DNA of 64,000 nt from Bacteriovorax stolpii (lineage in GTDB: Bacteria > Bdellovibrionota > Bacteriovoracia > Bacteriovoracales > Bacteriovoracaceae), in NCBI GenBank assembly GCA_945905815.1, contig CAMDQH010000005.1, positions 1 through 64,000 on the forward strand, written 5' to 3'. Numbering within the stretch: position 1 is the stretch's first letter; each line of letters opens with the position of its first letter. The position numbers were made by a program, and so were the translations under genes. Below are positions 4,642 through 63,601 of this stretch, one piece after another. The notes beneath the pieces were generated by a model that was given only the letters and a program-made list of their open reading frames with translations, was not told where the DNA came from and made no database searches.

Positions 4642-5649
4642 GTGTTTATGAAATGGATAATCTTCGGCCTTATTTTAAACCAGTTTGCATTCGCTGAAAG
4701 TTTTCAACCAACTTCGCAAGCGAGCTGTGTAAGTCTTGATTTGCGAGATGAAAAACTTAGAGACATTAGAGATCAAAAACAAGTGGCCTGGTGTTACGCC
4801 TTCACAGCAGCTGATATGCTTACCCATGCCTACGATCTAACAGAAAAGGCTTCGGCTGCAGATGTAGCGATTAATTATAATGAAAGTGACCTAGGGCAAT
4901 TTAGTCGTTGGCTCTTTCGCACATTTGGCAGAAAGCCGACTCAGGGTGAGCAAGATAATTTTATGATGCCTCATCAGACTGGATTCAATAAAGTCGCTCT
5001 TGATCGGGCCATGCGCGAAGGCCATTGTCCTGAGAGAGTTTTCCCCTCTGAATCTTGGGTTAAAATGAACCGTGAAGGGGATAAGTGGCTTGAAGCAAAA
5101 ACAGATCTAAGAACGGCCATGCTGGAAATTTTCGGATTACTCAAAAATCAAGACAATCTAACAGTGGCCAATCTCCCTTTTTATTATCATTTTAAAAATG
5201 TGGAATCCCCGGAAGAGTTTTATAACTTAATTAAGGGACATAATTTCTCAGATTTTTACTCAAATCTGAGAAATGAAGTTTGCAAGCACGATCGGATTAA
5301 ATTCCAAAACCGATACGAATCAGTCATGTACATTAAGGATATTCTCACCTTCCCAGTCATGAATAATCAACTTAATCGGGGACGCGTTGTTGGAATTGAT
5401 TATGACTCGAGACTTTTGACAGACCAAAATAATGATTCTGTCAGTTTTTCTGAGCTCCACACTTCTACGATTGTGGCCAGGCGCTGGAATAAGACCCAAA
5501 ATGAGTGTCAATATCTCGTTCGTGATAGCCATGGCGCTCAATGTTCCAGGTATGATAGCAACTATGGGTGTCTGGGCGGACAGGTTTGGATAGATGAATC
5601 AAAAATATATTCAAATCTTATCTCTTTTGTTTATATAATTAAAAAATGA
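4642..5649 (+). CDS. Secreted papain-like (C1-type) cysteine peptidase
   Basis: Signal peptide; RDIRDQKQVAWCYAFTAADML (Q..C), late His (SELHTSTIV), YLVRDSHG in place of N-S-W-G. Confidence 0.65.
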   Translation: MFMKWIIFGLILNQFAFAESFQPTSQASCVSLDLRDEKLRDIRDQKQVAWCYAFTAADMLTHAYDLTEKASAADVAINYNESDLGQFSRWLFRTFGRKPTQGEQDNFMMPHQTGFNKVALDRAMREGHCPERVFPSESWVKMNREGDKWLEAKTDLRTAMLEIFGLLKNQDNLTVANLPFYYHFKNVESPEEFYNLIKGHNFSDFYSNLRNEVCKHDRIKFQNRYESVMYIKDILTFPVMNNQLNRGRVVGIDYDSRLLTDQNNDSVSFSELHTSTIVARRWNKTQNECQYLVRDSHGAQCSRYDSNYGCLGGQVWIDESKIYSNLISFVYIIKK

Positions 5650-6890
5650 AAATAAAACGACCCGCAACTTTAGCGCTCGATGAAATACTTCCCAAGAAGC
5701 CTATACTTTTGATGGGATCAGGTCCTGTGCCTATCCCTCTTGAAGTGGCAGCCGCAAACTCAATCGTCATTAGTCATTTAGGTGAGACGATGAAACAGAT
5801 TGTTTCTCGCATTAAACTTATGGGACAATATGTTTTTCAAACAAACAGTTCAAAAATTTTTGGAATAGCTGGTCCTTCTTCTGCTGCCATGGAAATGGCC
5901 GTTACGTCTTTATTGTGGCCAGGAAAAAAAGCTCTCGTTTTAAATATGGGAACCTTTAGTGCTCGTTTCGCTGAATTAGCGAAAGGGGTTGGAGCAGAAG
6001 TTACTGAGATTTTTCCTGTTGGACTTTCGCCTTTTAGAGTTCAAGAAGTAAAAGCTGCACTTGAAAATAAACAATTTGATGTTCTGACCTTAGTTCAAGG
6101 TGAGACTTCTTGTGGAATTAAAAATACTGAACTTGAAGCAATTGTTAAGCTTGCCAAGAGTTTTGGGGTCCGGACAATCGTTGACGCTGTTTGCACTTTA
6201 ACTACCATGCCTTGTCCGATGGATGAGTGGGGAATTGATATCCTGATGGTTGGTGGTCAAAAAGGCATTTCGGCTGTTCCCGGTGTTGCTATGATTGCCT
6301 TTTCAGAAGAGACCTTTGACTATATTTCTAAAAGAGAAGAAAGAATGCCCCATTGGTGCCTTGATCCGAGACGGGCGTACCGTTTTTGGGGACTAGGTGA
6401 GTATCACTATACCGCACCAGTTCCGGGTCTTTTGGCCTTGCACGAAGCACTGAGACTTATTTGTGAAGAAACACTTGAGAAAAGATTTGAGAGACATCTC
6501 ACGTCTTCAACAACGCTCCAGCATTGCTTGGAAGTTATGGGACTTGAACTGTTTACTCCAAAAGAATTTCGCCTTAATTCAGTTGTGGCGATTAAAAATC
6601 CGGACAAAGTTGTTACTAAGGAACTAATCAGTTTCCTCATAAAAAATCACCAAGTCGAAATATCAGGAGCATTTGGTCTCGATATTGTGCGTGTTGGCCA
6701 AATGGGCGAGCAGTGTCGACACGAAAATATCAAAAGAACACTTGAAGCGATTGGTGCAGGGTATGAACATTTTGGCGTAAAGCTTAATGTTTATTCTGCG
6801 ATGATTGAATTTGAAAAGTCTCGTGAAAGGGAAAGTGCGCTATATCTTTCACAGATGATATCAGAGGAAACTAAAACTTCGATGGCGTAA
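5646..6890 (+). CDS. Class V PLP-dependent aminotransferase (alanine/serine-glyoxylate type)
   Basis: LLMGSGPVPIPLEV, SSAAMEMAVTSLLWPGKKALVLNMGTFSARF, PLP lysine context VGGQKGISAVPGVAM; overlaps the upstream stop (ATGA). Confidence 0.85.
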   Translation: MKIKRPATLALDEILPKKPILLMGSGPVPIPLEVAAANSIVISHLGETMKQIVSRIKLMGQYVFQTNSSKIFGIAGPSSAAMEMAVTSLLWPGKKALVLNMGTFSARFAELAKGVGAEVTEIFPVGLSPFRVQEVKAALENKQFDVLTLVQGETSCGIKNTELEAIVKLAKSFGVRTIVDAVCTLTTMPCPMDEWGIDILMVGGQKGISAVPGVAMIAFSEETFDYISKREERMPHWCLDPRRAYRFWGLGEYHYTAPVPGLLALHEALRLICEETLEKRFERHLTSSTTLQHCLEVMGLELFTPKEFRLNSVVAIKNPDKVVTKELISFLIKNHQVEISGAFGLDIVRVGQMGEQCRHENIKRTLEAIGAGYEHFGVKLNVYSAMIEFEKSRERESALYLSQMISEETKTSMA

Positions 6891-26297: not shown

Positions 26298-26647
26298 TTT
26301 TTTTATTATTTCTTATTCCTTTTTCCTCTTGGGCCACAGAGATAAAGTTGAAAGAAGGTGAGAGATCGGCAACTTTGAAACAGATGAAGAATTTCTGGAT
26401 TTCTGCTGACTGTAAAAAATGCGAAGCACAGAGCATTATGGAATCTTCCAGTCCGGAAAAGATCAAGAAGGCACTTGCTCAAGTTCCAGATGGCCGCATT
26501 GCTCCCGGAACTCGAGTCTGTAATGGATTAGGTGGGATGAGCTGGGCCCTAAAAGATGATAAAGGCAGAACCCAAAGTATCTGTGAATTTAAAGACAAGA
26601 GCTACGTCCTGACTGATGATTTGGCAGGACTCATCCCTCAAAACTAA
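26282..26647 (+). CDS. Small secreted protein, DUF333-like C-terminus
   Basis: ATG overlaps the upstream peptidase stop; signal peptide; PGTRVCNGLGGMSW...SICEFKDKSYVL. Confidence 0.6.
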   Translation: MARKIIFLLFLIPFSSWATEIKLKEGERSATLKQMKNFWISADCKKCEAQSIMESSSPEKIKKALAQVPDGRIAPGTRVCNGLGGMSWALKDDKGRTQSICEFKDKSYVLTDDLAGLIPQN

Positions 26648-29600
26648 TCTTTAATCGAAAACGCTTTAAATCTATTCATTCCACCACAAGGGTAAGTCCT
26701 AACACGAACTTGTTCAATAGGACGTGAATCATTGATTGCGAAGGCCACTAGTTTTCCTGCATAGATTTTTACATTCGTTTTCTGTACAAGTTTTATCCAC
26801 TCACCCTTAACCATGCCCTCGACTTCTGACTCAAGTGGATTATTATTCACAAAATAAGTAAAATCCATCACGATATTTTTGACAGGAGCAGTTTTAGCAA
26901 GCTTCACAATGACTTCTTCAAAGTGACCAGGAATCCGGCTTCTGGCCGATTCCATTCCATCAAACATGTTAATAGGTGAGAAAGGTGAAATAACGAGCAC
27001 TGCCGGAGAGTAGTGCTCATCAGTCGCCTTAAGAATGGACGCTCCTAAAGCGGTACTAGCGTTATTATATTCTTCTCCGGATTGGATCACATCCCAATTC
27101 CTCTTAATCTCAGTTTGATCTGGAGAGTATTTAATAAAGAGAGGTTTAGTTGTTTGTGGCACTTTTTCTGTATAAATAACACATTTCGCCTCAGCAGATG
27201 CCGCAAAAGTTGAGGCCATTTCAGCAGGAAGTTCCTGATAAAGTCCCAGACGAGTAAGCCCACCATCCGGGAATATGCTTACTTTTATCTTGGAAAATAT
27301 TTTTGTCTTCGAATCAAGCCTCATTCGAATCTCTGAATGCCCTTCAAGATGCGTCTTAGAAAGGAATTCTTCCCAAGTTTCACTTCCCAAAATTTGGCCT
27401 TCAAGTTTAACCACAGGAGAAAAATTTCCTGTGTGGTATTTTGTGGAAAGTAGAACATATGAAAAAGCAGAAGGTTTTGCAAGATCAGCAGTAAGAGTAT
27501 CTACACCAGAAAGATTGTGTCTTACTGTTTCCCAGCTATCCATGATTTTGCCTTGATCCCCGAAAAGCTCTGGCTCAAAAATAGGCAAGTGATCACTAAA
27601 AAGATTTTCTGCCCTTGCAAAAAGGTCATTAGAAACTTCTAGAACCTTAGCACCAACAACTTTGTTAAAAGAGGCCAGTGGGTCAATCGGTCCCTTATGA
27701 GTGATTCCTTCAGGTCTAGTAGGTAAAAAAGCATTAAAAACGAGATTCTTGTAACCTATATTGACGACCTCATCTTTGGAGAGGTTTTCTGAAGAAAAAC
27801 TTTCTTTAAATTTAGTGGTATCAACTCCCTCGATATTAAATTCCCTGAGAATAATTTGAGCAACTTCAGAATTAAACAAGACACCTTTCAAGTCAGCATT
27901 ACAAAGTACAACCAAACCTTTGCGGCGATCTGGCCCTGCGAAACAATGAAGATAGAGACATCGGAAACCGTCATTGGCCCCTTGGTGAATAGCAAATCGA
28001 TTGAGACCAGCTTCAGCAATAAAAATACCTAACCCCATTTTGCAGCTCATAAAATTCATGCAACCTTTGTCGGTACCAAAAAGCATTTGAATTGCAGTAT
28101 CATGAGAAATAGCAGAATCAGATTTTAAACTATGATAGGCATGTTCGAGGTGTACCAAGAAGGTCGCCATTGACTCTGAGGTGCCCATGGCACCAGCAGC
28201 AAAAGCAGGAAACATCTTGCGTGTGCCTTCAATCACGTTGCCCTCGTCATTAAATCCGTGAGCGTAGCTAGTATTTGGAGAATTTTGCTCAAAACTAAAT
28301 TGATTCATTCCAAGCTCGTTAAGAAATGAACGAGTGAGATTAAAAATAGAGTCGCTCTCAAGCGCCTCTAGCAAATGCTCAAGAACAAGAAAGCCTCCAC
28401 CTGAATACTGAAAAGTCTCACCGGGCGTATTGCTTACTTTAATGGGAGGGTAGGCATATTCAACGTTACCAGTAAGGAGATCCTTAACTTCGGGCATTTT
28501 TTTATTGGCCGGAACACCGTTAACATAATGCATATTTAAAGCACTATGACTCATCAAGTGCGCAACTTGGACTCGCATATCATTTAAACGGAAACTAGAT
28601 GACGTTTTAGAAAGAAGTTCATCCACCGGAGTTGAAAGAGGAATGCTTTTTTTCTTAAAATATTCAAGGGCAAAAGCACTCGCGACTGTCTTACTAAGCG
28701 ATGCCATTTCAAACCACAAATCTGCAGATCCTTTTCCAAATGATAGGTTTTGGATACGATGATCATTTATAATTGAAATTTGAGCATTGTGGATGCCATG
28801 TTTTTTAAAGGAGTTTTCCAGTTTCTCGTAAAGACCGTCCAAAGGATGGGAGTTCATTCTTTTCTTAGTAATTTCCCATAAGGCCAAGCGTGCATTCTCA
28901 ATTTCTTTAGTCTCCGAATTATTAAGTCTCTCCCTTAGGATATTGAGAATTTCTGTTCCTGACTTATCTTTGGCCGAGATTAAAAATTTCATGCCAAACT
29001 TATTTAAATAAGTTTGGCCCATTGCAATTAGTTTCGCTTTGGTTTTCTCATCTTCGCCAAATACTTTTAACTGTTCACTTGTCGCCATCTTGTCGAGAGT
29101 TTTTTTACTCTCTCCAATATCTCCATGAAATGAAGCCGCTTCAAGAATTCCAGCCTTGCTAAAATTCATGATTAAGTCTTCAACTTGCTTTAAATCAACA
29201 GCAGTGTTCTTTGAAAGTGCCTTGGCAAAAGAAAGATTTCCGCACATCTCAAAATAATAATTAAACCGTTTAACTTGTTCCTGCATTTTGAATTTTTTAG
29301 GATCAATAGCTTCAACTGAACTCCATGCGTCCAGAGAACTTCTAACCGATTCAATCGTAAAAGGTAAGAAAAGCTGAGTAGCAAATTCGACAGGATTAGG
29401 ATCAGTCATCAGTTTAACCATGAGATTAAAAGCAACCGGATACCATTTATCTGTCCGCTCATCCCATTTTACTTGGACAATCTTTTTGTCATTAGATTTA
29501 TCTTTGCGGATAAAATGCAACTCTTCGTGAGCAATTTGAAGAAATTCCTCCAAATTGAATCGGCGATGCCGAATTTCATGCCAAACTTCCCAGCGCGAAC

Positions 29601-31308
29601 GCTCAGCAGTCGCAAGGTCATCCATTACGCGCGCCGGAACACCTGCTATTTGAGTTGGAAGTGCTACGCATCCATTTCCTGATAGCCAATCAGTAATATA
29701 TTGAAGTGATTGAAAAACATTGTAGCGAATTTCATCTGGATGGTTATTAGCAATAAAATTAGATTCTTTCATATCTGCCACAATCAGAGATCGAGAGTAC
29801 ATAGGATCATTTTTATCCAGTCCATCAATATCAGGGCCATGAATGAAATCCAGTATTTCTTGGTGATGTTTTTGATCAAGGAGTGAAGTTACCAAAGTGT
29901 TAAGCTTAGAAGAGTCACCCTTCTTATGAATATTCCATGCCTCAACCAACGCAAGACCAAGTCTGACAAAATCCGGGTGAGCAACCCAAAATCCAGTGAG
30001 ATCGCGCTTAAATTGAGTCACGACATCACGAATATAACCTTTGATTGTGACTTGAAAAGAAGGACTCATGAGATCATTTGTTATGGGCAAAATACCATAC
30101 ATACCTCCAACCTTAATTCCTCCGCGAGAACCAACAACTGAGGCCAAAAGATCATGCGACGCCTTGATATATTTTATAACGATATTGGGATCAGCTTTGA
30201 CTGGAATACGGTAATTTGCGTCTTCTTTAAAGAGTCTGGCAGTTGAGGCCAGATAATCATGCCAGCCAAGTGAAGCTCCTACAAAGTATGGATAGAGCTC
30301 ATCCATTATTTCATTTGTACGGAAAATGGCACGAGGATTTTCAAGAACGATCATGACCCGTATCGTTCCTATCTTGTATTCGGGATGAATTTTATTAATC
30401 ATCTTCTCAGCGGTCTCGAGCATGATTCTTATATAGCGGGCCTCTTCTTCGTTTTCAAGTTTAGGCACATAAAAGACCATCGCTTGAGGATTGTGCCAAT
30501 TCTTAAATAAATGTAGCGCAAAATCATAAAGGTGAAGAGGAAGAGGTTTGTTTTTATAAAATAAAAAGAAAGAAGGAAGTGCTAGACCTGGGAAACGTTT
30601 AATCGGATGTGAACGTTTTTCATTAACCAGTTCATATTTTTTGCCAGCGTTTTCATCTGTGAAAGATAAATCACCATCAAGGCATTTTGTTAAATTAACT
30701 CCAGCAGAGATAAGATCTGACCTGAGCGGGGTTTTAGAATCCTCATCATCAGCACCCCATTTCGGAATATTCGTTTGAGTAGATAATAATTCTTCAACAA
30801 TTGCTGGCTCATCTTTTAGTCTTCGGTGATAAGCGTTCATGGCATTGATAGAAAGTTTTGCGTTGTCTGGTGGCCCAAAGAGAGTAACGTGATTTCCCTG
30901 AAGATAATCTGGGACAGGTGCCACGGCGTTTCCAACAGGCGCATAATAATCAGGTCTTTTTGGACCCATAACGATTCGACCTTCACCATCTTCTAAACCA
31001 AAAACTGTTTGGTAGTCTGAACTGCTGAAATCTCTTTTCCAATCGCGATTAAAAGTGGCAAGGGCCTTTGTTCTTTCATCAATGAATTTTCGATCTTTAA
31101 TTCTGCGATTGAGGACAGTATTAAGTTCTGATTCTATGGCCTCATATAAATCACAAAGAAATTTTAATGAGTCCTTGTTCTCTAAGCCGCCAGTTTCTCC
31201 CACTTGAACAAGATTTTGTACGCCATCATATGGCCGAGCTTCCTTAAGAAGGTATGCGAGAAAAGAGTCAGAAATATAATCAGAATAATAGGGGATGGTT
31301 CGTTTCAT
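26644..31308 (-). CDS. Multidomain purine-catabolism fusion: malate synthase-like, OHCU decarboxylase-like, serine beta-lactamase-like, allantoicase-like
   Basis: Single 1554-aa ORF. aa ~1-590: MIVLENPRAIFRTNEIMDEL, GFWVAHPDFV, YITDWLSGNGCV...MDDLATAERSR. aa ~640-820: FNYYFEMCG, FHGDIGES...TSEQ, TYLNKFGMKFLISAKDKSGTEILNILRERLNN. aa ~825-1160: SLSK, YSGGGF, HQG. aa ~1185-1554: DSWETVRHN, TKYHTGNFSPVVKLEG, VSIFPDGGLTRLGLY and second repeat MFDGMESARSRIPGHFEEVIVKL. Confidence 0.88.
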   Translation of the reverse strand: MKRTIPYYSDYISDSFLAYLLKEARPYDGVQNLVQVGETGGLENKDSLKFLCDLYEAIESELNTVLNRRIKDRKFIDERTKALATFNRDWKRDFSSSDYQTVFGLEDGEGRIVMGPKRPDYYAPVGNAVAPVPDYLQGNHVTLFGPPDNAKLSINAMNAYHRRLKDEPAIVEELLSTQTNIPKWGADDEDSKTPLRSDLISAGVNLTKCLDGDLSFTDENAGKKYELVNEKRSHPIKRFPGLALPSFFLFYKNKPLPLHLYDFALHLFKNWHNPQAMVFYVPKLENEEEARYIRIMLETAEKMINKIHPEYKIGTIRVMIVLENPRAIFRTNEIMDELYPYFVGASLGWHDYLASTARLFKEDANYRIPVKADPNIVIKYIKASHDLLASVVGSRGGIKVGGMYGILPITNDLMSPSFQVTIKGYIRDVVTQFKRDLTGFWVAHPDFVRLGLALVEAWNIHKKGDSSKLNTLVTSLLDQKHHQEILDFIHGPDIDGLDKNDPMYSRSLIVADMKESNFIANNHPDEIRYNVFQSLQYITDWLSGNGCVALPTQIAGVPARVMDDLATAERSRWEVWHEIRHRRFNLEEFLQIAHEELHFIRKDKSNDKKIVQVKWDERTDKWYPVAFNLMVKLMTDPNPVEFATQLFLPFTIESVRSSLDAWSSVEAIDPKKFKMQEQVKRFNYYFEMCGNLSFAKALSKNTAVDLKQVEDLIMNFSKAGILEAASFHGDIGESKKTLDKMATSEQLKVFGEDEKTKAKLIAMGQTYLNKFGMKFLISAKDKSGTEILNILRERLNNSETKEIENARLALWEITKKRMNSHPLDGLYEKLENSFKKHGIHNAQISIINDHRIQNLSFGKGSADLWFEMASLSKTVASAFALEYFKKKSIPLSTPVDELLSKTSSSFRLNDMRVQVAHLMSHSALNMHYVNGVPANKKMPEVKDLLTGNVEYAYPPIKVSNTPGETFQYSGGGFLVLEHLLEALESDSIFNLTRSFLNELGMNQFSFEQNSPNTSYAHGFNDEGNVIEGTRKMFPAFAAGAMGTSESMATFLVHLEHAYHSLKSDSAISHDTAIQMLFGTDKGCMNFMSCKMGLGIFIAEAGLNRFAIHQGANDGFRCLYLHCFAGPDRRKGLVVLCNADLKGVLFNSEVAQIILREFNIEGVDTTKFKESFSSENLSKDEVVNIGYKNLVFNAFLPTRPEGITHKGPIDPLASFNKVVGAKVLEVSNDLFARAENLFSDHLPIFEPELFGDQGKIMDSWETVRHNLSGVDTLTADLAKPSAFSYVLLSTKYHTGNFSPVVKLEGQILGSETWEEFLSKTHLEGHSEIRMRLDSKTKIFSKIKVSIFPDGGLTRLGLYQELPAEMASTFAASAEAKCVIYTEKVPQTTKPLFIKYSPDQTEIKRNWDVIQSGEEYNNASTALGASILKATDEHYSPAVLVISPFSPINMFDGMESARSRIPGHFEEVIVKLAKTAPVKNIVMDFTYFVNNNPLESEVEGMVKGEWIKLVQKTNVKIYAGKLVAFAINDSRPIEQVRVRTYPCGGMNRFKAFSIKD

Positions 31309-31313
31309 GAGAT

Positions 31314-31631
31314 CTAAGTTCCTCTGTAGGTAGAGTATCCATAAGGATTGAGAAGTAATGGAACGTGGTACTTACGATCGGTATTCTTCACCTGAAAAAC
31401 TACGGGAGAATTCATAAAGAAATGCTCTTCGTTTTTATAATAATCTTCAATCTTAAATGTCAGACGATAGACTCCCTGCTCTTTAGGACAATTAAAAACA
31501 ATTCTCCCGTCTGCATTGGTTTGATCCGTACCAATTTCTTTCCAGCTGGTATTCGTTTGCTGCTCGAGAGTAACGGTTACTCCCGTTGCTGCACAACCCT
31601 TAGTCGTGTCCAAAATATGAGTACTGATCAT
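31314..31631 (-). CDS. hiuH: 5-hydroxyisourate hydrolase (transthyretin-like)
   Basis: STHILDTTKGCAATGVTV, NADGRI, YHVPLLLNPYGYSTYRGT; terminal YRGT and conserved His/Arg present. Confidence 0.95.
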   Translation of the reverse strand: MISTHILDTTKGCAATGVTVTLEQQTNTSWKEIGTDQTNADGRIVFNCPKEQGVYRLTFKIEDYYKNEEHFFMNSPVVFQVKNTDRKYHVPLLLNPYGYSTYRGT

Positions 31632-31641
31632 TCGTGAATCC

Positions 31642-33273
31642 TTATTTGAAAATAAACGTCAATGGAGTCATGCCATTTTTAGTTACCGCGATTTCTTGTT
31701 TTTGAGTTCCATATACTTCGTGCCAAGCTTCGATAGTATATTTTCCTTCAGGAAGATTCTTGATGGTGAATTCACCTTGAGAATTAGTCACAGAAAAATA
31801 AGGGTGATCCATCACTGCGACGTAGGCACCCATCCAAGGATGGACACTGCACTTTGCTTGGAGAAAAGTTTCAGGTTTATTAAAAATCTTAGTTTCTCTC
31901 TGGCCTTTAGTCGGCATGGCCATATTGAATCTTTGATTAACGGCCGTGATCGAACGAACATTATGAAAAACAGGGTCAGAATTAATAAAAGTCACTTTTT
32001 GGCCAACTCGTGCTCCGACGACTCTTGGAGTGTACATACAGCCATGCTGATCGAGTTCGACTTCTTTCGTGGGAATATCGGTAAATGTTTTTCCCTCAAT
32101 GCCACTGATCACGCGAACTAGAACGTTTTGAAGTTTTCCATTATTCACTATGACTTCGTTTGAATACACCGGACCTTTAAAGTTTTTTGCACAAGCTGCA
32201 GGAAGGTTTAGTCTTTTTCCTTGTGGTATTTTGCCTTGAAAAAGAACTGAGCCAGTAATTGTAACCTCAGCTCCGTTTGTTACTTGCTCAATAGGGGCAG
32301 CGATAGGAGCTGGTGGAGTCTCGAGTGAATCAGATTCTACAGATACAACTGGCGCTGGATTTTCTGCGGGCTCTCGCGAGAAAATAATCACTCCGACAAT
32401 TAAAGCAATACCGATTATGGCAGCTGTCATGGAGCGCTTAGGATTTTTAAGTCTAACCACAAAATATTCGCGAATAGCAGCGCCACCCAAACTTATTACT
32501 AGAAGTATGAGCCAATTGTATTCATGCCCATAGGTCTGAGGAAAATGGTTACTAAGCATGACGAAAATAACTGGTAAGGTGAGATAGGTGTTATGTGTTG
32601 ATCTGTTTTTGGCGTTTTTACCCCAATCTTGGTTAACGGCCTCACCCTTTCTAGCTGCTTCAACCATTTTAAGCTGACGCGGGATGATCCGCATAAAAAC
32701 ATTGGCCGTCATCCATGTACCCATCATTCCACCAATGTGGATATATGCAGCTCGTCCACTCAAGGTATGGCAAAGGAAATAGGACATACCTACTAGCCAC
32801 GCGAGTGTGAGAAGGTGACCTATAATAGGTTTCGTTTTTGTAAATTCTCTTTCCCACACAAAGTCATAAAAAAACCATGAACCGATTAAAGAGAATAGGG
32901 AAATTGCGAGGGCCTGATAATAAGTGATGTTTGATACCGATGAATCCATCAACATGGTACCTTCACCTGAGTAATAGGTAAGGGCCACCAAAATGGCTCC
33001 ACTCATCCACGTCCAATACGATTCCCATTTAAACCAATGAAGATGTTCAGGGACTTTCGTTGGGCCCATGAGAAGTTTTTCAACATGATAAAAACCTCCC
33101 CCATGAAGCATCCAAAGATCTCCGACGTGCCCAGGCTGTGTCGAATTTTTATTAAACTCAAAACTGCGATCTAGCCACATGAAAAAAATGGATGTTCCAA
33201 TCCATGTCACAGCGACAGTGATGTGTAGCCAACGTACGAGTAGTAAAATCCAATCAAAAATATCTTGATTCAT
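31642..33273 (-). CDS. puuD: PuuD-like membrane urate oxidase fused to a C-terminal cupredoxin-like domain
   Basis: Multi-TM N-terminus LLVRWLHITVAVTWIGTSIFFMWLDRSF...GGGFYHVEKLL; C-terminus has type-1 Cu pattern H437 (DPVFHNVRS), C475-S-V-H478-P-W-M481; no CxxCH in the ORF. Confidence 0.88.
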   Translation of the reverse strand: MNQDIFDWILLLVRWLHITVAVTWIGTSIFFMWLDRSFEFNKNSTQPGHVGDLWMLHGGGFYHVEKLLMGPTKVPEHLHWFKWESYWTWMSGAILVALTYYSGEGTMLMDSSVSNITYYQALAISLFSLIGSWFFYDFVWEREFTKTKPIIGHLLTLAWLVGMSYFLCHTLSGRAAYIHIGGMMGTWMTANVFMRIIPRQLKMVEAARKGEAVNQDWGKNAKNRSTHNTYLTLPVIFVMLSNHFPQTYGHEYNWLILLVISLGGAAIREYFVVRLKNPKRSMTAAIIGIALIVGVIIFSREPAENPAPVVSVESDSLETPPAPIAAPIEQVTNGAEVTITGSVLFQGKIPQGKRLNLPAACAKNFKGPVYSNEVIVNNGKLQNVLVRVISGIEGKTFTDIPTKEVELDQHGCMYTPRVVGARVGQKVTFINSDPVFHNVRSITAVNQRFNMAMPTKGQRETKIFNKPETFLQAKCSVHPWMGAYVAVMDHPYFSVTNSQGEFTIKNLPEGKYTIEAWHEVYGTQKQEIAVTKNGMTPLTFIFK

Positions 33274-34006: not shown

Positions 34007-34753
34007 TTAATTTTGTATGCGATTGATTTTCAGAAGCCCAAAAAACTCTGCAACGACACAAAGACTATAACCCATATCAAACTCATTCCACTTGACTGAA
34101 AACTTTGCCCGATTTGGGTATTGATGATGGTTATTTTGAAACCCTTCTCCAAATACCAATAGGGCAACAAAATGATTGTTACAAGAATCATCTTGGGTTT
34201 TAAAGTTCTTGCCGCCGTATTTGTGGGCAAGGGCATTAACCATCCAACCTTGAACAGGGTGACTCATTATACCTAAAAAATAACCCGAACCAATCCAGTA
34301 GGAAGAAAAGCTCAAACTAATGACTAGAGCTAGAAAAACATGAGCAAGATAGGGCAACCAGGACAAATTATTTCGATTAACAAACCCAATATCAAAAGGA
34401 ATGTCATCTACAACTTCACTCATTACTTTATCATTTGAAAGCAGGGCATGTTGTATTTTTAGATAGGCCTTGTATTGTCCGGCCCACACTCCCATTACAC
34501 CTAATTGGTTTGGACTATGTGGGTCGTCTTTTGTATCTGAATGCATATGGTGAAGTCTATGCATGCACGCCCAGATTTTTGGATCAAGGCCCGTAAACCA
34601 TGCTCCAGTGAGGCCAATCCATTTCATCATTCTGGGGCCCAGCAGAATTGATTTATGAGTAAGGCCTCGGTGGTAAAGAACGCTGATATAAAACATGTTC
34701 GCCACGTAGCCAAATAAAAAGAATATGAAAGTTGCAAACAAGGTATTATTCAT
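34007..34753 (-). CDS. Fatty acid (acyl-CoA type) desaturase
   Basis: Histidine boxes HRGLTH, HRLHHMHSD, NNHHQYP. Confidence 0.88.
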   Translation of the reverse strand: MNNTLFATFIFFLFGYVANMFYISVLYHRGLTHKSILLGPRMMKWIGLTGAWFTGLDPKIWACMHRLHHMHSDTKDDPHSPNQLGVMGVWAGQYKAYLKIQHALLSNDKVMSEVVDDIPFDIGFVNRNNLSWLPYLAHVFLALVISLSFSSYWIGSGYFLGIMSHPVQGWMVNALAHKYGGKNFKTQDDSCNNHFVALLVFGEGFQNNHHQYPNRAKFSVKWNEFDMGYSLCVVAEFFGLLKINRIQN

Positions 34754-35297
34754 TCTTTAAGATCTCTTCTTGTAAATGTTTCGTAGGAGGGTTCTTCCCA
34801 AACCAAATAGAAAGAAAGCTTTTCTGGAATTCCTTGCCCTGAATCTCGCCTTTAAGTTCTCCATTCTCATAAACCTTTGTTGCGTCTTCAGTTAATGAAA
34901 AGCTCTGTCTACGATCACCCTTGATTTCTCCAAAAAACTTTTTAATATCCATAATATGATCCTTCAGATTTGGGTATTGGTACTGAGCACTTTCTTCAAA
35001 TTGAAAGTCCCAAGCTTTATCGACATCTTCATTGTCGAATGCCCGAAGATAGGTCATTTCAAAGCATAGGGGACGTTGATCTAATTCACTACCTGTTCCA
35101 GTTTTAATTTTTTGAGGTGCATAGATAGCAAGCACGAAAATCCTAACTTTTAAAAAAGTCGCAGTTCTAACTCCTGCACCGCTGATAGGAATATCTTTTC
35201 CTTCACACTTCAAAGTAGGAGCTATTTTAACGCCCTCTACTTCCCGAGCGTGTACAGTAAGAGACAAAAAAAGGAGACTTAAAACGAGGGTTTTCAT
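34746..35297 (-). CDS. Chalcone isomerase-like domain secreted protein
   Basis: Signal peptide; CEGKDIPISGAGVRTATFLKVRIFVLAIYAPQ. Confidence 0.8.
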   Translation of the reverse strand: MKTLVLSLLFLSLTVHAREVEGVKIAPTLKCEGKDIPISGAGVRTATFLKVRIFVLAIYAPQKIKTGTGSELDQRPLCFEMTYLRAFDNEDVDKAWDFQFEESAQYQYPNLKDHIMDIKKFFGEIKGDRRQSFSLTEDATKVYENGELKGEIQGKEFQKSFLSIWFGKNPPTKHLQEEILKNE

Positions 35298-36337
35298 TTT
35301 TTGGAAAACAGGTAATGTGAAACGGCCCATTCTTGTCCTTTTGCATACCCGAAGAGTTCCGCGCATGACATGAAGAAAATTCGCCATCTGTTAAACCATT
35401 CTTTACTATCATCACCATAAGTTTTATTAAAAATGGCCATAATCGCTTCGCTATGATTGTCCATATTTCTTAACCAGTCTTCTGATGTCTTTTGATAATG
35501 TATTCCATCCCAAATCCAAGACTGTTGTAAATAGAGGTCTTTTTGAAACGAGTAGAGAAGATTGTGGGCCGGCATTTGACCACCAGTGAAAAAATATTTC
35601 CCCATCCAGTTATCTTCACCGTCAACTTCAAAGGGGTAGGAGTAATCTTTATGTGTAAATATATGCACAAATAGTTTCCCCTCAGGTGAGAGAACATTGG
35701 AGATCTTTGAGAGAAGTAATTCATAGTTTTTGAAATGTTCAAACATTTCAATACTCATGACACGGTCAAATGATTCAAACTCGAGCGCAAGACTTTCAAG
35801 TTGCGAAATATCTCTAGTTAAAACCATTACATTCTTAAGACCTCTTTTTTTGGCTTCACTATCGATGTAAGTTTTTTGCGAAGAAGAGTTGGAGATCGCA
35901 ACAATCTTAGCATTAGGGAATTTCGTTGCCATGAAAAGCGTTAATGAACCCCAACCACACCCTAATTCCAAAATTCGCATGCCATCTTTGATCTCAGCTC
36001 TTTGGCAGCTAATTGTTAAGGCCGAATCTTCAGCATCATCCAGAGAAGTTGTTGAATCAGGGTAATAGGCGGAGCTGTATTTTAAGTTCTTTCCAAGAAC
36101 TCTTAAGAAAAAGTCTGCTGGCAATTCATAATGTTGCTCATTTGCATCTTTGGTGTGGACTGCAAGCGGAGAATTTATTAGGCCAAGTCGATATTTTTCT
36201 GCCTCTGCTTGTGTCTTACATAACGAATGAGTATCTAGTTCATCTAATCTAGTTTTACATAATTTTCTAATACCGAAACGAATTGCCGTATCTGGAATTT
36301 GACCCTTTTCCATCGCCTTAATAAAATGTTCAATCAT
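35294..36337 (-). CDS. SAM-dependent methyltransferase of CFA-synthase/coclaurine N-methyltransferase type
   Basis: ILELGCGWGSLTLFMATKFPNAKIVAISNSSSQK, MSIEMFEHFKNY. Confidence 0.85.
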   Translation of the reverse strand: MIEHFIKAMEKGQIPDTAIRFGIRKLCKTRLDELDTHSLCKTQAEAEKYRLGLINSPLAVHTKDANEQHYELPADFFLRVLGKNLKYSSAYYPDSTTSLDDAEDSALTISCQRAEIKDGMRILELGCGWGSLTLFMATKFPNAKIVAISNSSSQKTYIDSEAKKRGLKNVMVLTRDISQLESLALEFESFDRVMSIEMFEHFKNYELLLSKISNVLSPEGKLFVHIFTHKDYSYPFEVDGEDNWMGKYFFTGGQMPAHNLLYSFQKDLYLQQSWIWDGIHYQKTSEDWLRNMDNHSEAIMAIFNKTYGDDSKEWFNRWRIFFMSCAELFGYAKGQEWAVSHYLFSKK

Positions 36338-37611
36338 AGAAGACTCCTGTTACGGTAATTTGTTTTAGTTAAAGTCATTTGAGAAAGTCCGATCGCCCTT
36401 TCGCGAAATCCGCCCTCACAATATGAGAAGTAATACTGCCATAAGCGGTAAAGAAAATCAGGATAACCTAATTTGGTAATTTCAGCTTTGTTTTTGCCTA
36501 GGCGAACAGACCAGTCTTTGAGAGTATGAGCATAATCTTCTGCAAAGTCTTTTTGATCAATTAAAACCATGTCTGTTTTATTTGTTATAGAATTCATAAT
36601 TGCATTTACAGACGGTATACCTGTCCCAGGGAAGATATGGCGCTGGATAAAATCGACGGATTTCCTAGCATTCTTATAATACTGATCACGAATAGTAATA
36701 GCTTGCAGAACCATTATACCATTGGGCTTAATGAGGCTCGAGCATTTCGCAAAGAATACATCAAGATTATCAAGCCCTACGGCCTCAATCATCTCAACTG
36801 AAATCAATTTATCATACACTCCAGTCAGTTTTCGATAGTCATCAAATAAAACAGTGATTCGGTCTTGTAGCCCGGCATGCTTAACCTTTTCAGTAGCATA
36901 GGTAAATTGTTCTATTGAGATGGTAGTCGTCGTAACACGACAACCAAATGTTTTAGCGGCATAAATTGCGAGAGACCCCCAACCTGTTCCAATCTCAATT
37001 AAATGTTCTTCAGGTTTTAGGTCCAGCTTTTGACAAAGGGTCATTATTTTTAATTCTGAAGCCTCATGAAGCGTAGAATCTTTATTTTGATATACTCCTG
37101 AACTATACATCATGGTTTCGTCGAGGAAGAGCTTAAAGAAATCATTTCCAATGTCATAGTGGGACCGAATATTTGCAAGACTTCCGTTAATCGTATTGCC
37201 CCTCAGTCCGTGAAAGACACGTTGAATCGGTTGTAGTAAACTCCCAATGCCACCGTCAATTGATTGTAGAAGATCTCGATTGATAACAAAAATTCTGACT
37301 AAATTCGTTAAATCATCAGTGTCCCAGTCGCCATCTACATAACTTTCACCATTCCCAATGCTTCCACCCAAAAGTGTACGAGAATAGAAACTGCTGCGAT
37401 AAACGATAATTTTACATTGTAAGGCCGCATTAGATTCCCCAAACGTATATTCAGCATGAGTTTTTGCAGACCGATCAGAAATGATCAAATAACCATTCTT
37501 AAGATCTGTAAACTTATTTACAAGACCAGATATGCACCATTTATCTAAAGCAGGTAAATTAGCTACAAACTTACTGAGCGACCTATCTTTAGGTAGAACT
37601 TGAACTGTCAT
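36334..37611 (-). CDS. Cyclopropane-fatty-acyl-phospholipid synthase family protein
   Basis: HYDIGNDFFKLFLDETMMYSSGVY, LIEIGTGWGSLAIYAAKTFGCRVTTTTIS, RHIFPGTGIPS. Confidence 0.92.
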   Translation of the reverse strand: MTVQVLPKDRSLSKFVANLPALDKWCISGLVNKFTDLKNGYLIISDRSAKTHAEYTFGESNAALQCKIIVYRSSFYSRTLLGGSIGNGESYVDGDWDTDDLTNLVRIFVINRDLLQSIDGGIGSLLQPIQRVFHGLRGNTINGSLANIRSHYDIGNDFFKLFLDETMMYSSGVYQNKDSTLHEASELKIMTLCQKLDLKPEEHLIEIGTGWGSLAIYAAKTFGCRVTTTTISIEQFTYATEKVKHAGLQDRITVLFDDYRKLTGVYDKLISVEMIEAVGLDNLDVFFAKCSSLIKPNGIMVLQAITIRDQYYKNARKSVDFIQRHIFPGTGIPSVNAIMNSITNKTDMVLIDQKDFAEDYAHTLKDWSVRLGKNKAEITKLGYPDFLYRLWQYYFSYCEGGFRERAIGLSQMTLTKTNYRNRSLL

Positions 37612-38386
37612 GAAACTTCTCCTTCAAGGGATGCGTGTAGAAAGGCATTCTTTTGATCAATAATATGAGTGCTTGAAAATAAATAGCGAGCATTGTTTTA
37701 AAAGTTACAAATGGAAACTGGATAAAATATCTAAGAATATTCCCTGCGGTCAGAGGTTTCTTTTTCAATTGTAATGTGGTGTCGAAAATAACTCTTGTTT
37801 CTCCATGGTTTCGATTCTGCATGTAGACGTAAAGATTATCATTTGGATTGTGAAAAACCCAGTTGTAGTCAATGCTCATCGGCATAAATGGTGATACATG
37901 AAAATCTTTAGGGAATTGAAAAGTATTTATTTGCTCTTTAGTTGTCTTAAATACCTGGGCGTGTTTTTCGCCCCAAGGAGTGTTCGTGATTTCAGATACT
38001 ATAAATTGTAGGGTTTCTCCATCTTCTTCATAGCAGTAATAAAAAGTCACAGGATTGAAGCAAAACCCAAAATAAGAAATATTGCAAAGGATTCGAATTG
38101 GACCAGTACATTTTTGTTGCGTCTTTTCGAAAATAAGATCTCTTACGCTATCATCAAGACCCTTTGCCTCTTGTCCTAAATAATCTTTACGCCAAAAGGA
38201 TAAAATACCGGGTTGATTAAAAGTAAACAGAAGTGGAATATTGAATATGAGTGGAATTTCTTTTAAATCCAAAAAGTAATAACAAACACGATAGTTGAAT
38301 ATATTTGTTCGTGGAGAAAGTCTTCGATGTTCTGAAGTTCCAACGTAGATGGAGCTTTTCAGGGTCATAAATATTCCCCAAAACAA
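37589..38386 (-). CDS. DUF1365-family protein
   Basis: YVGTSEHRRLSPRTNIFNYRVCYYFLDLKEI, FGFCFNPVTFYYCY, NTPWGEKHAQVF. Confidence 0.92.
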   Translation of the reverse strand: MFWGIFMTLKSSIYVGTSEHRRLSPRTNIFNYRVCYYFLDLKEIPLIFNIPLLFTFNQPGILSFWRKDYLGQEAKGLDDSVRDLIFEKTQQKCTGPIRILCNISYFGFCFNPVTFYYCYEEDGETLQFIVSEITNTPWGEKHAQVFKTTKEQINTFQFPKDFHVSPFMPMSIDYNWVFHNPNDNLYVYMQNRNHGETRVIFDTTLQLKKKPLTAGNILRYFIQFPFVTFKTMLAIYFQALILLIKRMPFYTHPLKEKFHDSSSST

Positions 38387-39612
38387 GAACTTACATTTAA
38401 TGCACTTTTAACTCCATCTTCGTGGAATCCATTGCCCCAATAGGCACCACAGAAATGTGTACGTGTTTGAATTGTACTTATTGTTTTCCATAAATCTTGA
38501 GATTTTATTGCTTCTTGATTATAGACTGGATGGGAGTATGATATTTTTTTTATAACTTTTTTTGAGTCAATCAAATGATCCATATTTAATGAGACTAAAA
38601 ATGTTTCAGGTGATGAAATGCCTTGAAGAATATTCATGTGGTAGGTGACGGCCACTCGATCTAGTTGTATTTTTGGTAAATAGTAATTCCAACTAGCATG
38701 CCCAGCTTTGCTCTTAGGTAAGACAGTAGTATCCGTGTGCAAAATGACATCGTTAGGGCGGTAAGAGAAACCACTCATGACATTTCGCTCTTGGGCCGAT
38801 GGATCCTTCAAAATTTCTAAGGCCTGATTGGCATGGCACGCAAAAATAACGTGATCAAATTTGAGATCATTATTGATAATAACTTCGTCACTGGTTCTTG
38901 TGACTGATGCGACGGCCGTATTTATATGAATGTTTTGAGCAAAACTGGCAGTCAGTTTTGGGATATAGGAGCTGGAGCCGCCTTTGAGCACTCGCCATTT
39001 TGGCCGATTATCTACGGTTAACATTCCATGATGATGAAAAAAACGCACAAAAAAATGTAGAGGAAACTTTTTCATTTCGTTTCTGCTCGCAGACCATATT
39101 GCGGCCCCCATAGGCATCACATAATGTTCAATGAATTCATTTGAGAAATTATTTCTAATTAAATAGTCCTCGAGTGTCATATCGTCTGGTGACTGGTCCC
39201 TATATTTTAAAAAATACTCAGTGGCGCTTTTATTAAAGCGTAGAATGTCTTTTATCATCCTGTAAAATGATGGTCTAAATATGTTTCTGCGCTGGCAGAA
39301 TAAAGAGTTAATACTGGTTCCGTTATATTCGAGGCCGTTTTTTTCAACCTTAACACTAAAACTCATATGGGAATCTTTGGTTTCTATTCCAAGTTTCTCC
39401 ATAAGTTTTATGAAATTTGGGTAGTTCCTATCGTTGTGGACAATAAAACCAGTATCAATTAAGTATTCTCCTGAAGGGACCTGGATTCTATGAGTATGTG
39501 TGTGGCCTCCCAAACGAGGACCTGACTCAAATAAATGAACTTCATGCTTTGGGGCTAACATGTGGCCGCAAACCATCCCTGAAATCCCACTACCAATAAT
39601 TGCTATTTTCAA
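38365..39612 (-). CDS. FAD/NAD(P)-binding amine-oxidase-like protein
   Basis: KIAIIGSGISGMVCGHMLAPKHEVHLFESGPRLGGHTHT. Confidence 0.92.
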   Translation of the reverse strand: MKIAIIGSGISGMVCGHMLAPKHEVHLFESGPRLGGHTHTHRIQVPSGEYLIDTGFIVHNDRNYPNFIKLMEKLGIETKDSHMSFSVKVEKNGLEYNGTSINSLFCQRRNIFRPSFYRMIKDILRFNKSATEYFLKYRDQSPDDMTLEDYLIRNNFSNEFIEHYVMPMGAAIWSASRNEMKKFPLHFFVRFFHHHGMLTVDNRPKWRVLKGGSSSYIPKLTASFAQNIHINTAVASVTRTSDEVIINNDLKFDHVIFACHANQALEILKDPSAQERNVMSGFSYRPNDVILHTDTTVLPKSKAGHASWNYYLPKIQLDRVAVTYHMNILQGISSPETFLVSLNMDHLIDSKKVIKKISYSHPVYNQEAIKSQDLWKTISTIQTRTHFCGAYWGNGFHEDGVKSALNVSSCFGEYL

Positions 39613-40415
39613 TTACGCCTCATTTCATCTTTATTTATTCCGAGAATCAATTTTACGCTTGGGATAAGCACTGGTGTTTTTTCTTTGTAAGCAATATATT
39701 CGGGATTTTTCTCATGTCTTTTTTCAACCAAAGGTACGCCAGACACTTTCCAAAGGAGGAAAGTTAAAAATGCTGGGCCTATAATGGCCCAAAGATTTGT
39801 TCCATCAAGAGACACTAGTGATATTCCCCACCATAAAAAGGCTTCACCAAAGTAATTTGGGTGTCGACTATAGGCCCATAATCCACTTTGTAAAACCTTC
39901 GTCTGGTTCTTAACATTTGCCTTAAACCGACTTTTTTGTAAATCAGCAACTGATTCCCATATTAAACCTGTGAGCCAAATGGCCATTCCAAGATAATTGA
40001 ACCACATTAGATTTTGATTATTATTCAAATGAGAGGCAAAGAGTGGGGTGCCTACTATTACCATTAAGCCAAACTGCAATAAATAGACTTTGAAATAGGC
40101 AATAATATTGGTTTTTTGACCCCATTCTTTTCGCCAATTTGCATAACGGAAATCTTCGGGCTTCCCACTGTTACGAAAATGAATAAATGAGGTTAAACGT
40201 ATTCCCCAAATAGTAACGAGAAGCATGACTATATTTTCTCGAAGATTATTCCATCCGTTCAAAAAACAACCCGTCAAAGTAATGAAGATAAAACCAAGAC
40301 CCCAAGCTGTATCTATCACGCTTAAATTTTTCTTTATCACTGCCGTAATAAAAAAAATGTGAATAAGGACTAAAGGTCCAACAATCATGTATAACTGGTC
40401 ATTCATAACGTGCAT
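39609..40415 (-). CDS. DUF1295-family membrane protein
   Basis: SVIDTAWGLGF, YSRHPNYFGEAFLWWGI. Confidence 0.9.
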   Translation of the reverse strand: MHVMNDQLYMIVGPLVLIHIFFITAVIKKNLSVIDTAWGLGFIFITLTGCFLNGWNNLRENIVMLLVTIWGIRLTSFIHFRNSGKPEDFRYANWRKEWGQKTNIIAYFKVYLLQFGLMVIVGTPLFASHLNNNQNLMWFNYLGMAIWLTGLIWESVADLQKSRFKANVKNQTKVLQSGLWAYSRHPNYFGEAFLWWGISLVSLDGTNLWAIIGPAFLTFLLWKVSGVPLVEKRHEKNPEYIAYKEKTPVLIPSVKLILGINKDEMRRN

Positions 40416-61646: not shown

Positions 61647-62351
61647 CTATATTTTTTTCACCAGCAAACTAATCTCTTTGCCCAACTTCTGCGCTAATTT
61701 GTATTCAGTAAGATAGATACTGTCACTGCAGCTTGGCACTTTGGTTAAAGAAAGCTTTCTCATGACCTGAATCTCTTCCAAACTGCTTTTCAATTTATTC
61801 TCAATTTGATCAAGATCTGGTTTTATCTTTTTATCAATCAGGCCATTTATCACAAGTGATTTTAAAGTAATCTGAACCACAGAAAGTTCGCCCAAAGATG
61901 AGCTCTTGAATGAGTAAAAGCGGATCATCTCTAGAGTATTATCTAAGGCCAGTGCTTTGGTATCAGCAGACCATTTTTCTGATTTTACAGTGTTAATAAG
62001 GCCATTAAAGTATTTGAACTCGGAGAAAATATAGTGACAAGGTTCATCCAGTACTGAGTCTTGCCACTGCTTAATTTTATCTTGTGTGCAGGCCTCAGCA
62101 ACAGCTTTTAAGCTTTCGAGACGAGGCTGAGAAAGATAGTGTTTAGTAGAGTATTCTTTTAAAAACTTAGTGGCCTCTTCTTCATTGGTCTTAAAACCAT
62201 AAACAATCTCATCTTTAATTTCATTTACGGTTACAGCTGCTTCCAAAACGTTCTTTTTATATTGGTTGCAGGTATTAATTGGATCTATTGAAAGTGTGGG
62301 AGCGGATTTATTGCAGCCAATCACGAGCATTAAAACAACGAACAACTTCAC
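61647..62351 (-). CDS. Hypothetical lipoprotein
   Basis: MKLFVVLMLVIGCNKS lipobox; overlaps the upstream deaminase gene. Confidence 0.6.
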   Translation of the reverse strand: MKLFVVLMLVIGCNKSAPTLSIDPINTCNQYKKNVLEAAVTVNEIKDEIVYGFKTNEEEATKFLKEYSTKHYLSQPRLESLKAVAEACTQDKIKQWQDSVLDEPCHYIFSEFKYFNGLINTVKSEKWSADTKALALDNTLEMIRFYSFKSSSLGELSVVQITLKSLVINGLIDKKIKPDLDQIENKLKSSLEEIQVMRKLSLTKVPSCSDSIYLTEYKLAQKLGKEISLLVKKI

Positions 62352-63601
62352 AAAGTGACGCCGTGTTTTTTAGCAATCTCATCAAAGTGAATCATCACTC
62401 GTTTCGCCCAATTGCGTTTATCAATATAGTCGCCAGGATAGAAACTCTTTTTAAAGCCGTAGGCCACGATGTCTTTGAGGTGTTTCATCGGGACTTCAAA
62501 ATTATTTAACAAAAGTCCGTATTCATTAGATACAGTTGTATCAGATACCAAGCGGTTATCTGTACAAATGGTCACGGACATACGGTTTGCTAGCATATGC
62601 TTAATATTGTGGTTCTTAATGTTTTTGATTTCAGGATTGGTCTGAAGGTTTGAAGTTAAGCAGACTTCAATCGTCGTTCGTTTATCAGCGACAAAAGAAA
62701 TCAGATCACTGATGTATTTTTTCTTATCGATAATTTTTGGATCTACGACTTTGTTTTCATCAAACAAATAATAACCGTGACCAATTCGATCTGCGTAGCA
62801 CTCTGTGATCGCTTGAAAAATACTTTCAGCGCCGTATGCCTCACCAGCGTGAACAGTTTTATGCATGAAGTTTTTATGAGCATAAGCGTACACATCATGA
62901 AACTTGCCGCAAGGGTAACCTTCTTCTTGCCCTGCGAGATCAATACTCACAATCGGAATCGCTTTTTCGTCGCGGATTTTGACGGCGGCCCTAACCATCT
63001 GAAGAGCAGCGGCTTTGACTATTTCAATATGCTTTGAGTATTCCATCGTCTTGTAAAAGCCGGTGTAGTAAGGGGAGTAACCCTTGGGACCAAAGTTTCT
63101 CATGGCACAGCTGATAATGCCGTAGTGGAATTCTGGGCGAGTCCCACTTTTAACGTCAGATCGATTATTGTGTTCTTTTTTGGCACGATCAAGGCCTTTG
63201 TAGGCGGCCTCCATAACCGTTTCCAAGGTCAGGCCAGCTTCAACATCCATCATGAGCTGGGGAGCAAATCGTGGCTCAATATAGTAGACGTTTTCGTTTT
63301 GGTTATCGATGGCAAGTTCATAGGCCACGCGCTCAATATTTTCCAAGTCGCGAAGAGCGGCACAGGTATATTGAAAGCCATGAAGATATTCTCCGAGGTT
63401 TGAATAAGCTGATTTAAAAACCAGCTCTCTTAGACCTTCTTCCGTGTAGGACGGCATCTTAATGTTATTCTTTTTGGCCATCTCAATCAAAGTGGGGATC
63501 CTGAGGGATCCATCTAGATGGAGGTGAAGGTCAGACTTGGGCATGTCATGGATAAATGCGTCAGAGTATTTTGTCATAAGTGACTTAAAATACTCCCGCA
63601 A
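62348..63601 (-). CDS. Adenosine deaminase-family amidohydrolase
   Basis: KSDLHLHLDGSLRIPTLIEMA, VHAGEAYGAESI, DRIGHGYYLF, CLTSNLQT, VTICTDNRLVSDTT. Confidence 0.88.
   Translation of the reverse strand: MREYFKSLMTKYSDAFIHDMPKSDLHLHLDGSLRIPTLIEMAKKNNIKMPSYTEEGLRELVFKSAYSNLGEYLHGFQYTCAALRDLENIERVAYELAIDNQNENVYYIEPRFAPQLMMDVEAGLTLETVMEAAYKGLDRAKKEHNNRSDVKSGTRPEFHYGIISCAMRNFGPKGYSPYYTGFYKTMEYSKHIEIVKAAALQMVRAAVKIRDEKAIPIVSIDLAGQEEGYPCGKFHDVYAYAHKNFMHKTVHAGEAYGAESIFQAITECYADRIGHGYYLFDENKVVDPKIIDKKKYISDLISFVADKRTTIEVCLTSNLQTNPEIKNIKNHNIKHMLANRMSVTICTDNRLVSDTTVSNEYGLLLNNFEVPMKHLKDIVAYGFKKSFYPGDYIDKRNWAKRVMIHFDEIAKKHGVTL

Follow-up and report, generated by a model that had tools for sequence, protein, structure and literature searches.

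The four-part reading frame and its urate operon

The window (the whole 64,000-nucleotide stretch of Bacteriovorax stolpii DNA analysed here) carries on its minus strand an open reading frame of 1554 aa, with an ATG start and zero internal stops, which combines four enzyme-like parts. Two further genes lie directly upstream. The features are as follows:

26644..31308, minus strand, four-part fusion (malate synthase-like / OHCU decarboxylase / beta-lactamase-fold hydrolase / allantoicase)
29239..31308, minus strand, malate-synthase-like part (aa 1-690)
28834..29238, minus strand, OHCU decarboxylase part (aa 691-825; H728, E745, Q746, R817)
27724..28833, minus strand, serine beta-lactamase-fold hydrolase part (aa 826-1195; S870-x-x-K873, Y968-S-G, H1108-Q-G-A-N)
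26647..27711, minus strand, allantoicase part with two repeats (aa 1200-1554)
31314..31631, minus strand, HIUase (5-hydroxyisourate hydrolase; PF00576), 5 bp upstream of the fusion
31642..33273, minus strand, PuuD-type membrane urate oxidase (Urate_ox_N, E 2e-105), 10 bp beyond HIUase

PuuD and HIUase are encoded on the same strand with gaps of only 5 and 10 bp, so that the three genes form a compact urate operon in which the fusion comes third (puuD - HIUase - fusion). The HIUase scored 121 bits against TIGR02962, above the cut-off of 87. The C-terminus of PuuD (31642-33273) displayed weak plastocyanin-like and carboxypeptidase-regulatory-like matches, not the usual cytochrome c, while the PuuD of genus g45 (described below) has a weak haem-binding match at this end instead.

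Of 53 fusion loci, 39 have HIUase directly upstream and 32 have PuuD in the second upstream position. A xanthine dehydrogenase operon adjoins the fusion in some other loci, and in the one Planctomycetota-labelled locus checked (L064) a cofactor-free uricase replaces PuuD. The purine context assumed in the original prediction is strengthened by these neighbours. In L064 (5593-16553) the genes for uricase, HIUase, the fusion and XdhA/B/C are adjacent, and have the appearance of a complete xanthine-to-malate gene set. Elsewhere in the window, an adenosine deaminase (62348-63601) and a class V aminotransferase (5646-6890) possibly belong to further purine or glyoxylate metabolism; the aminotransferase is 33% identical to that of the g45 ureide cluster. 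The region 34007-40415 encodes, on one strand, a fatty acid desaturase, a chalcone-isomerase-like protein, two cyclopropane synthases, DUF1365, a flavin amine oxidase and DUF1295, and judging from these gene products it is probably a fatty-acid modification cluster.

The fusion protein or its parts are encoded in 50 of the 129 genomes searched in the same order. The named genome collection yielded 69 loci, and an alignment was made of 54 distinct full-length fusions (42-74% identical). Within Bdellovibrionota the hosts are Bacteriovoracaceae, Halobacteriovoraceae, Oligoflexia and Pseudobdellovibrionaceae; the others are several Planctomycetota-labelled bins and one contig grouped under Myxococcota by the tree program. 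We place high confidence in the four-part architecture and its urate operon.

Properties of the individual parts

Five Pfam models, all above their curated cut-offs, place the four families in the order originally predicted: MS_TIM-barrel (PF01274; aa 241-453; E 1e-18, 67.7 bits, cut-off 26.4), MS_C (PF20659; aa 525-645; E 1e-10, 42.6 bits, cut-off 23.1), OHCU_decarbox (PF09349; aa 707-819; E 6e-18, 66.2 bits, cut-off 24), Beta-lactamase (PF00144; aa 835-1140; E 2e-18, 66.9 bits, cut-off 27) and Allantoicase (PF03561; two repeats from aa 1219; E 2e-41, 142.1 bits, cut-off 27). The residues named in that prediction (H728, E745, SLSK with S870/K873, YSG with Y968, HQG with H1108) were located at the expected positions, and AlphaFold models of the malate-synthase-like and hydrolase parts matched the expected folds. 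In contrast, none of the four parts reached the cut-off of its NCBIfam equivalog: TIGR01344, malate synthase A (140.4 bits vs 594.5; 123.5 for a stand-alone relative), TIGR03180 for the OHCU part (66 vs 139.4), NF033085, class C beta-lactamase (20.2 vs 415) and TIGR02961 for the allantoicase part (160.2 vs 277.9). Family names alone therefore cannot fix the reactions, and the predicted assignments hold at the level of superfamily or fold, the exact reactions being putative.

The malate-synthase-like part retains R238, E323, D351, D564, D187/E189 and C547, which in an alignment to AceB and GlcB correspond to R338, E427, D455, D631, D270/E272 and C617 of E. coli MSG; from MSG structures we take these to include the catalytic Arg, the Mg-ligand Glu and Asp, and the base Asp. 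R238, E323, D351 and D564 were invariant among 50 sequences. The AF2 model (pLDDT 92) superimposes on E. coli malate synthase A (3cv2_B) with a Z score of 35.3 and an rmsd of 2.3 over 496 residues. The fold, the catalytic Arg/Glu/Asp/Asp set and the MS_C domain are thus shared with AceB (PDB 3cuz/3cv2), but the identity is only about 26%, the fused part has a longer N-terminus and inserts, and the AceB motifs RGLHLPEKH and GRWDY appear in it as PGLALPSFF and GWHDY. Because the window's own genome also encodes an ordinary malate synthase separately, next to an isocitrate-lyase gene, the fused part can be regarded as a dedicated copy.

Stand-alone malate-synthase-like genes (57-60% identical) were detected in allantoin operons of Desulfobulbaceae together with AllC and AllE, and in two of the three operons also with PuuE and a hydantoin-racemase-type protein. 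These genes (about 700 aa; L089:6992-9058, L091:6965-9076, L100:6989-9061) lie between transporter/racemase genes and AllE/AllC. Their location links the malate-synthase-like part to ureide degradation without reference to the fusion. A tree of stand-alone and fused forms had a very long outgroup branch and did not show which of the two is older. Plasmid records among the matches listed contained ordinary malate synthases only.

The OHCU part shares PF09349 and the catalytic His and Glu (H728, E745) with OHCU decarboxylase (UraD; PDB 5uou/3o7h/2q37), from which it differs in being embedded in a fusion and in its sub-threshold TIGR03180 score. Similarly, the allantoicase part has the two repeats and the conserved motifs of allantoicase (yeast Dal2; PDB 1sg3/1o59), namely DSWE..RH (1257-), H.GN (to 1295), PDGG (1347-) and M.DG.E.aRsR (1448-); a canonical allantoicase of the same order scored 441 bits, as opposed to 160 for the fused part.

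In the hydrolase part the motifs ASLSK, YSG and HQGAN are kept (S870, K873 and H1108 invariant, Y968 in at least 90% of sequences). Its AF2 model (pLDDT 94) matched esterases, R61 DD-peptidase, LACTB and D-amino acid amidase (Foldseek, VIA; 13-19% identity). The fold and the SxxK, Y-S and HxG motifs are common to PF00144 serine hydrolases (R61 DD-peptidase, LACTB, D-amino acid amidase, EstB-type esterases), but the part is distinguished by its fusion in front of an allantoicase. The "class C beta-lactamase-type" label of the original prediction is correct as to motifs and fold, but not as to class C membership, given the 20.2 of 415 bits. A role in antibiotic resistance was rejected on this score and on gene context. 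The models of the metal-dependent allantoinases AllB (TIGR03178) and PuuE (TIGR03212) were not among the matches listed for the fusion protein; these enzymes are unrelated to it in sequence and resemble the hydrolase part only in the proposed reaction and pathway position. We know of no allantoinase with a beta-lactamase fold.

Missing steps and a proposed route

The urate route requires urate oxidase, HIUase, OHCU decarboxylase, allantoinase, allantoicase and usually ureidoglycolate lyase. Allantoicase was encoded in 59 of the 129 genomes of the order, in 47 of them within the fusion and in 9 as a separate gene (g45 was set apart). AllB above cut-off, PuuE, the ureidoglycolate lyase AllA and DUF6986 were all absent from the 47 fusion genomes, whereas the 9 genomes with separate allantoicase contained AllB (8 genomes) or PuuE (1 genome), and in every case DUF6986; OHCU decarboxylase and HIUase genes accompany the separate allantoicase in each of the six operons inspected (L118-L121, L127, L135). 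For AllB/PuuE this difference gave a Fisher p of 1.3e-10 when counted by genome, although kin genomes are not independent points; by genus (0 of 13 with the fusion, 5 of 5 with separate allantoicase) the value calculated by hand was about 1e-4.

AllA and AllB above cut-off were likewise absent from 26 further fusion genomes, as was PuuE from 47 fusion genomes obtained outside the order search, some of which may share species with that search. The one-contig genome G104 had neither AllB above cut-off nor PuuE, and a single amidohydrolase match; amidohydrolases below the AllB cut-off exist in many fusion genomes, and might include an unrecognised allantoinase. The AllA domain (PF04115) was detected neither in the fusion protein nor in any fusion genome searched.

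As relatives lacking the fusion carry AllB or PuuE and a separate allantoicase, the beta-lactamase-fold part stands where an allantoinase is missing. Operons without the fusion contain no such hydrolase, and in the fusion the part is flanked by the enzymes acting before and after allantoinase, from which we infer that it is an allantoinase; our confidence in this reading is moderate. The original prediction had given the part no role, and the genome comparison makes it the prime allantoinase candidate. The route from OHCU to malate predicted at that time agrees with the four families and the purine context, but it left the conversions of allantoin to allantoate and of ureidoglycolate to glyoxylate unfilled.

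Judging from conserved residues and gene context, PuuD and HIUase would convert urate to OHCU, which the OHCU part would decarboxylate to (S)-allantoin. The beta-lactamase-fold part would then open the hydantoin ring to give allantoate by acyl-serine chemistry (Ser870 as the nucleophile, Lys873 as the base), in place of AllB and PuuE; such an opening would chemically resemble that of a lactam. The allantoicase part would split allantoate into ureidoglycolate and urea, and ureidoglycolate would break down to urea and glyoxylate, either by itself or on the enzyme. Spontaneous decay of ureidoglycolate has been described (PMC3793230). Finally, the malate-synthase part would condense glyoxylate with acetyl-CoA to malate, thereby disposing of a toxic aldehyde.

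On balance, we lean slightly towards a multifunctional uric-acid-degrading enzyme, encoded in the operon puuD - HIUase - fusion, whose hydrolase part is a non-homologous allantoinase. A fuller version, in which the fusion contains a metal-independent allantoinase of a third class, with the fold of serine beta-lactamases, and one polypeptide leads from OHCU to malate, its malate-synthase part perhaps accepting ureidoglycolate directly, is more tentative, and we stop just short of adopting it. Channelling from OHCU to malate along the chain is suggested with low confidence.

Alternative readings, parallels and significance

The malate-synthase-like part might instead act on ureidoglycolate, as a Mg-dependent lyase or as a lyase-plus-synthase that frees urea and hands glyoxylate to acetyl-CoA within a single site, and thus fill the AllA step. 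In keeping with this, AllA was found in none of the fusion genomes searched, nor in the three Desulfobulbaceae genomes that carry the gene on its own, and the Mg and Arg site for glyoxylate would presumably suit the hydroxyacetate half of ureidoglycolate. In genus g45, AllA was present only in G122, in which no malate-synthase-like gene was seen; G120 and G121 present the opposite pattern, but all three assemblies (G120-G122) are incomplete. Moreover, in operons lacking the fusion (AllB-allantoicase-OHCU decarboxylase-HIUase, without AllA) the corresponding place is taken by DUF6986, which weakly resembles malate synthase/HpcH TIM barrels. Against this reading, the part keeps the complete malate synthase architecture together with the base D564, beyond what a lyase would need, and we consider it unlikely.

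DUF6986 (PF22484) adjoins HIUase in L118:10716-12059, L119:3477-4808, L120:1-1341, L121:4247-5551 and L127:1474-2814. It has a malate-synthase-like FDDAAT motif; hhalign of the malate-synthase-like family against it gave a weak local match (probability 2.7) aligned on the Glu/Asp metal motif, and a sequence comparison with the PDB gave no match. Ureidoglycolate or glyoxylate may be its substrate.

It is similarly doubtful that the beta-lactamase-fold part is an accessory hydrolase of another substrate (a ureide, amide or ester), allantoin being opened by an unrecognised enzyme. The fold family is promiscuous, its nearest members being esterases, peptidases, amidases and lactamases, and in g45 AllB co-occurs with the hydrolase. 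In this genus the genes are split into a malate-synthase-like gene, a hydrolase-allantoicase gene and, in G120 and G121, an AllB-OHCU decarboxylase fusion (AllB above cut-off in G120, partial in G121), and G121 and G122 also carry a canonical separate allantoicase. The hydrolase is thus present not only where AllB is absent. Although g45 can be read as having two redundant allantoin-to-ureidoglycolate modules, this weakens the argument for an allantoinase. Against an accessory role, the hydrolase-allantoicase pair in G121 and G122 would duplicate AllB/allantoicase step for step (AllB being found in G121 only). Furthermore, the hydrolase subfamily, present in 69 of the 369 genomes of the Bdellovibrionota search, occurs only fused in front of allantoicase (except for contig-end fragments and split reading frames), and G104, with its single amidohydrolase match, offers neither AllB above cut-off nor PuuE.

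Two other genes were noted: the AllB-OHCU decarboxylase fusion of G120 and G121 (617 aa, followed by HIUase; L111:6877-8730 and L113:2-1273), which looks undescribed, and that of a single-repeat allantoicase-like protein of 166-179 aa (L112:8387-8926, L109:3071-3571), which has class V aminotransferase genes on one side and the malate-synthase-like gene on the other.

That one or more parts form a catalytically dead scaffold for assembly or regulation is highly improbable. Low scores against equivalog models would fit such a role, as would the 1405-aa fusion of L196 (4409-8626; G349), in which the malate-synthase part is shortened and GNGCV is replaced by GNANA (the other three parts look intact). 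However, L196 still keeps the R/E/D/D set, and in all four parts the catalytic motifs rank among the most conserved positions of the 54 aligned sequences, where they are invariant or nearly so. The dN/dS ratio was 0.04-0.14 where the synonymous rate was estimable, with dS near saturation. A dead malate-synthase part in particular was thought unlikely because of its invariant catalytic set. An assembly or gene-calling artefact, which the original prediction had itself raised, is scarcely credible: many relatives are metagenome bins and the reading frame is split inside the OHCU or hydrolase part in L197 and, perhaps by a frameshift, an assembly error or a genuine division, in L124:6652-11260 (G007) and L123:6036-10671 (G085), but the 54 distinct full-length versions come from independent projects and assemblies, including the one-contig genome G104, and rule out a chance join.

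The multifunctional uric-acid-degrading enzyme that we favour has partial parallels. Ureide-enzyme fusions are a known kind, as neighbouring enzymes are joined both in NF040771 (bifunctional allantoicase/ureidoglycine aminohydrolase) and in the AllB-OHCU decarboxylase of L111, and the present protein is a variant with two unusual members. To our knowledge, no ureide fusion joins four parts or includes a malate synthase or a beta-lactamase fold. The S. cerevisiae DAL cluster contains, beside ureide genes, the DAL7 malate synthase for allantoin-derived glyoxylate, but unlike the fusion it consists of separate proteins, with DAL1 allantoinase and DAL3 ureidoglycolate lyase. In the open-licence literature on allantoicase/malate synthase fusions, DUF6986, urate or allantoin in Bdellovibrio, and replacements of ureidoglycolate lyase we found no description of the fusion architecture, as originally supposed.

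If correct, the proposed route would explain how many predatory-type bacteria and their relatives complete the breakdown of uric acid although they have neither a known allantoinase nor a known ureidoglycolate lyase. A non-homologous serine-hydrolase allantoinase would be added to a step so far credited to unrelated metal enzymes, and DUF6986 emerges from this comparison as a candidate for ureidoglycolate or glyoxylate. The fusion would then be a natural four-enzyme assembly line for a pathway in which OHCU and ureidoglycolate are unstable intermediates and the end product, glyoxylate, is toxic.
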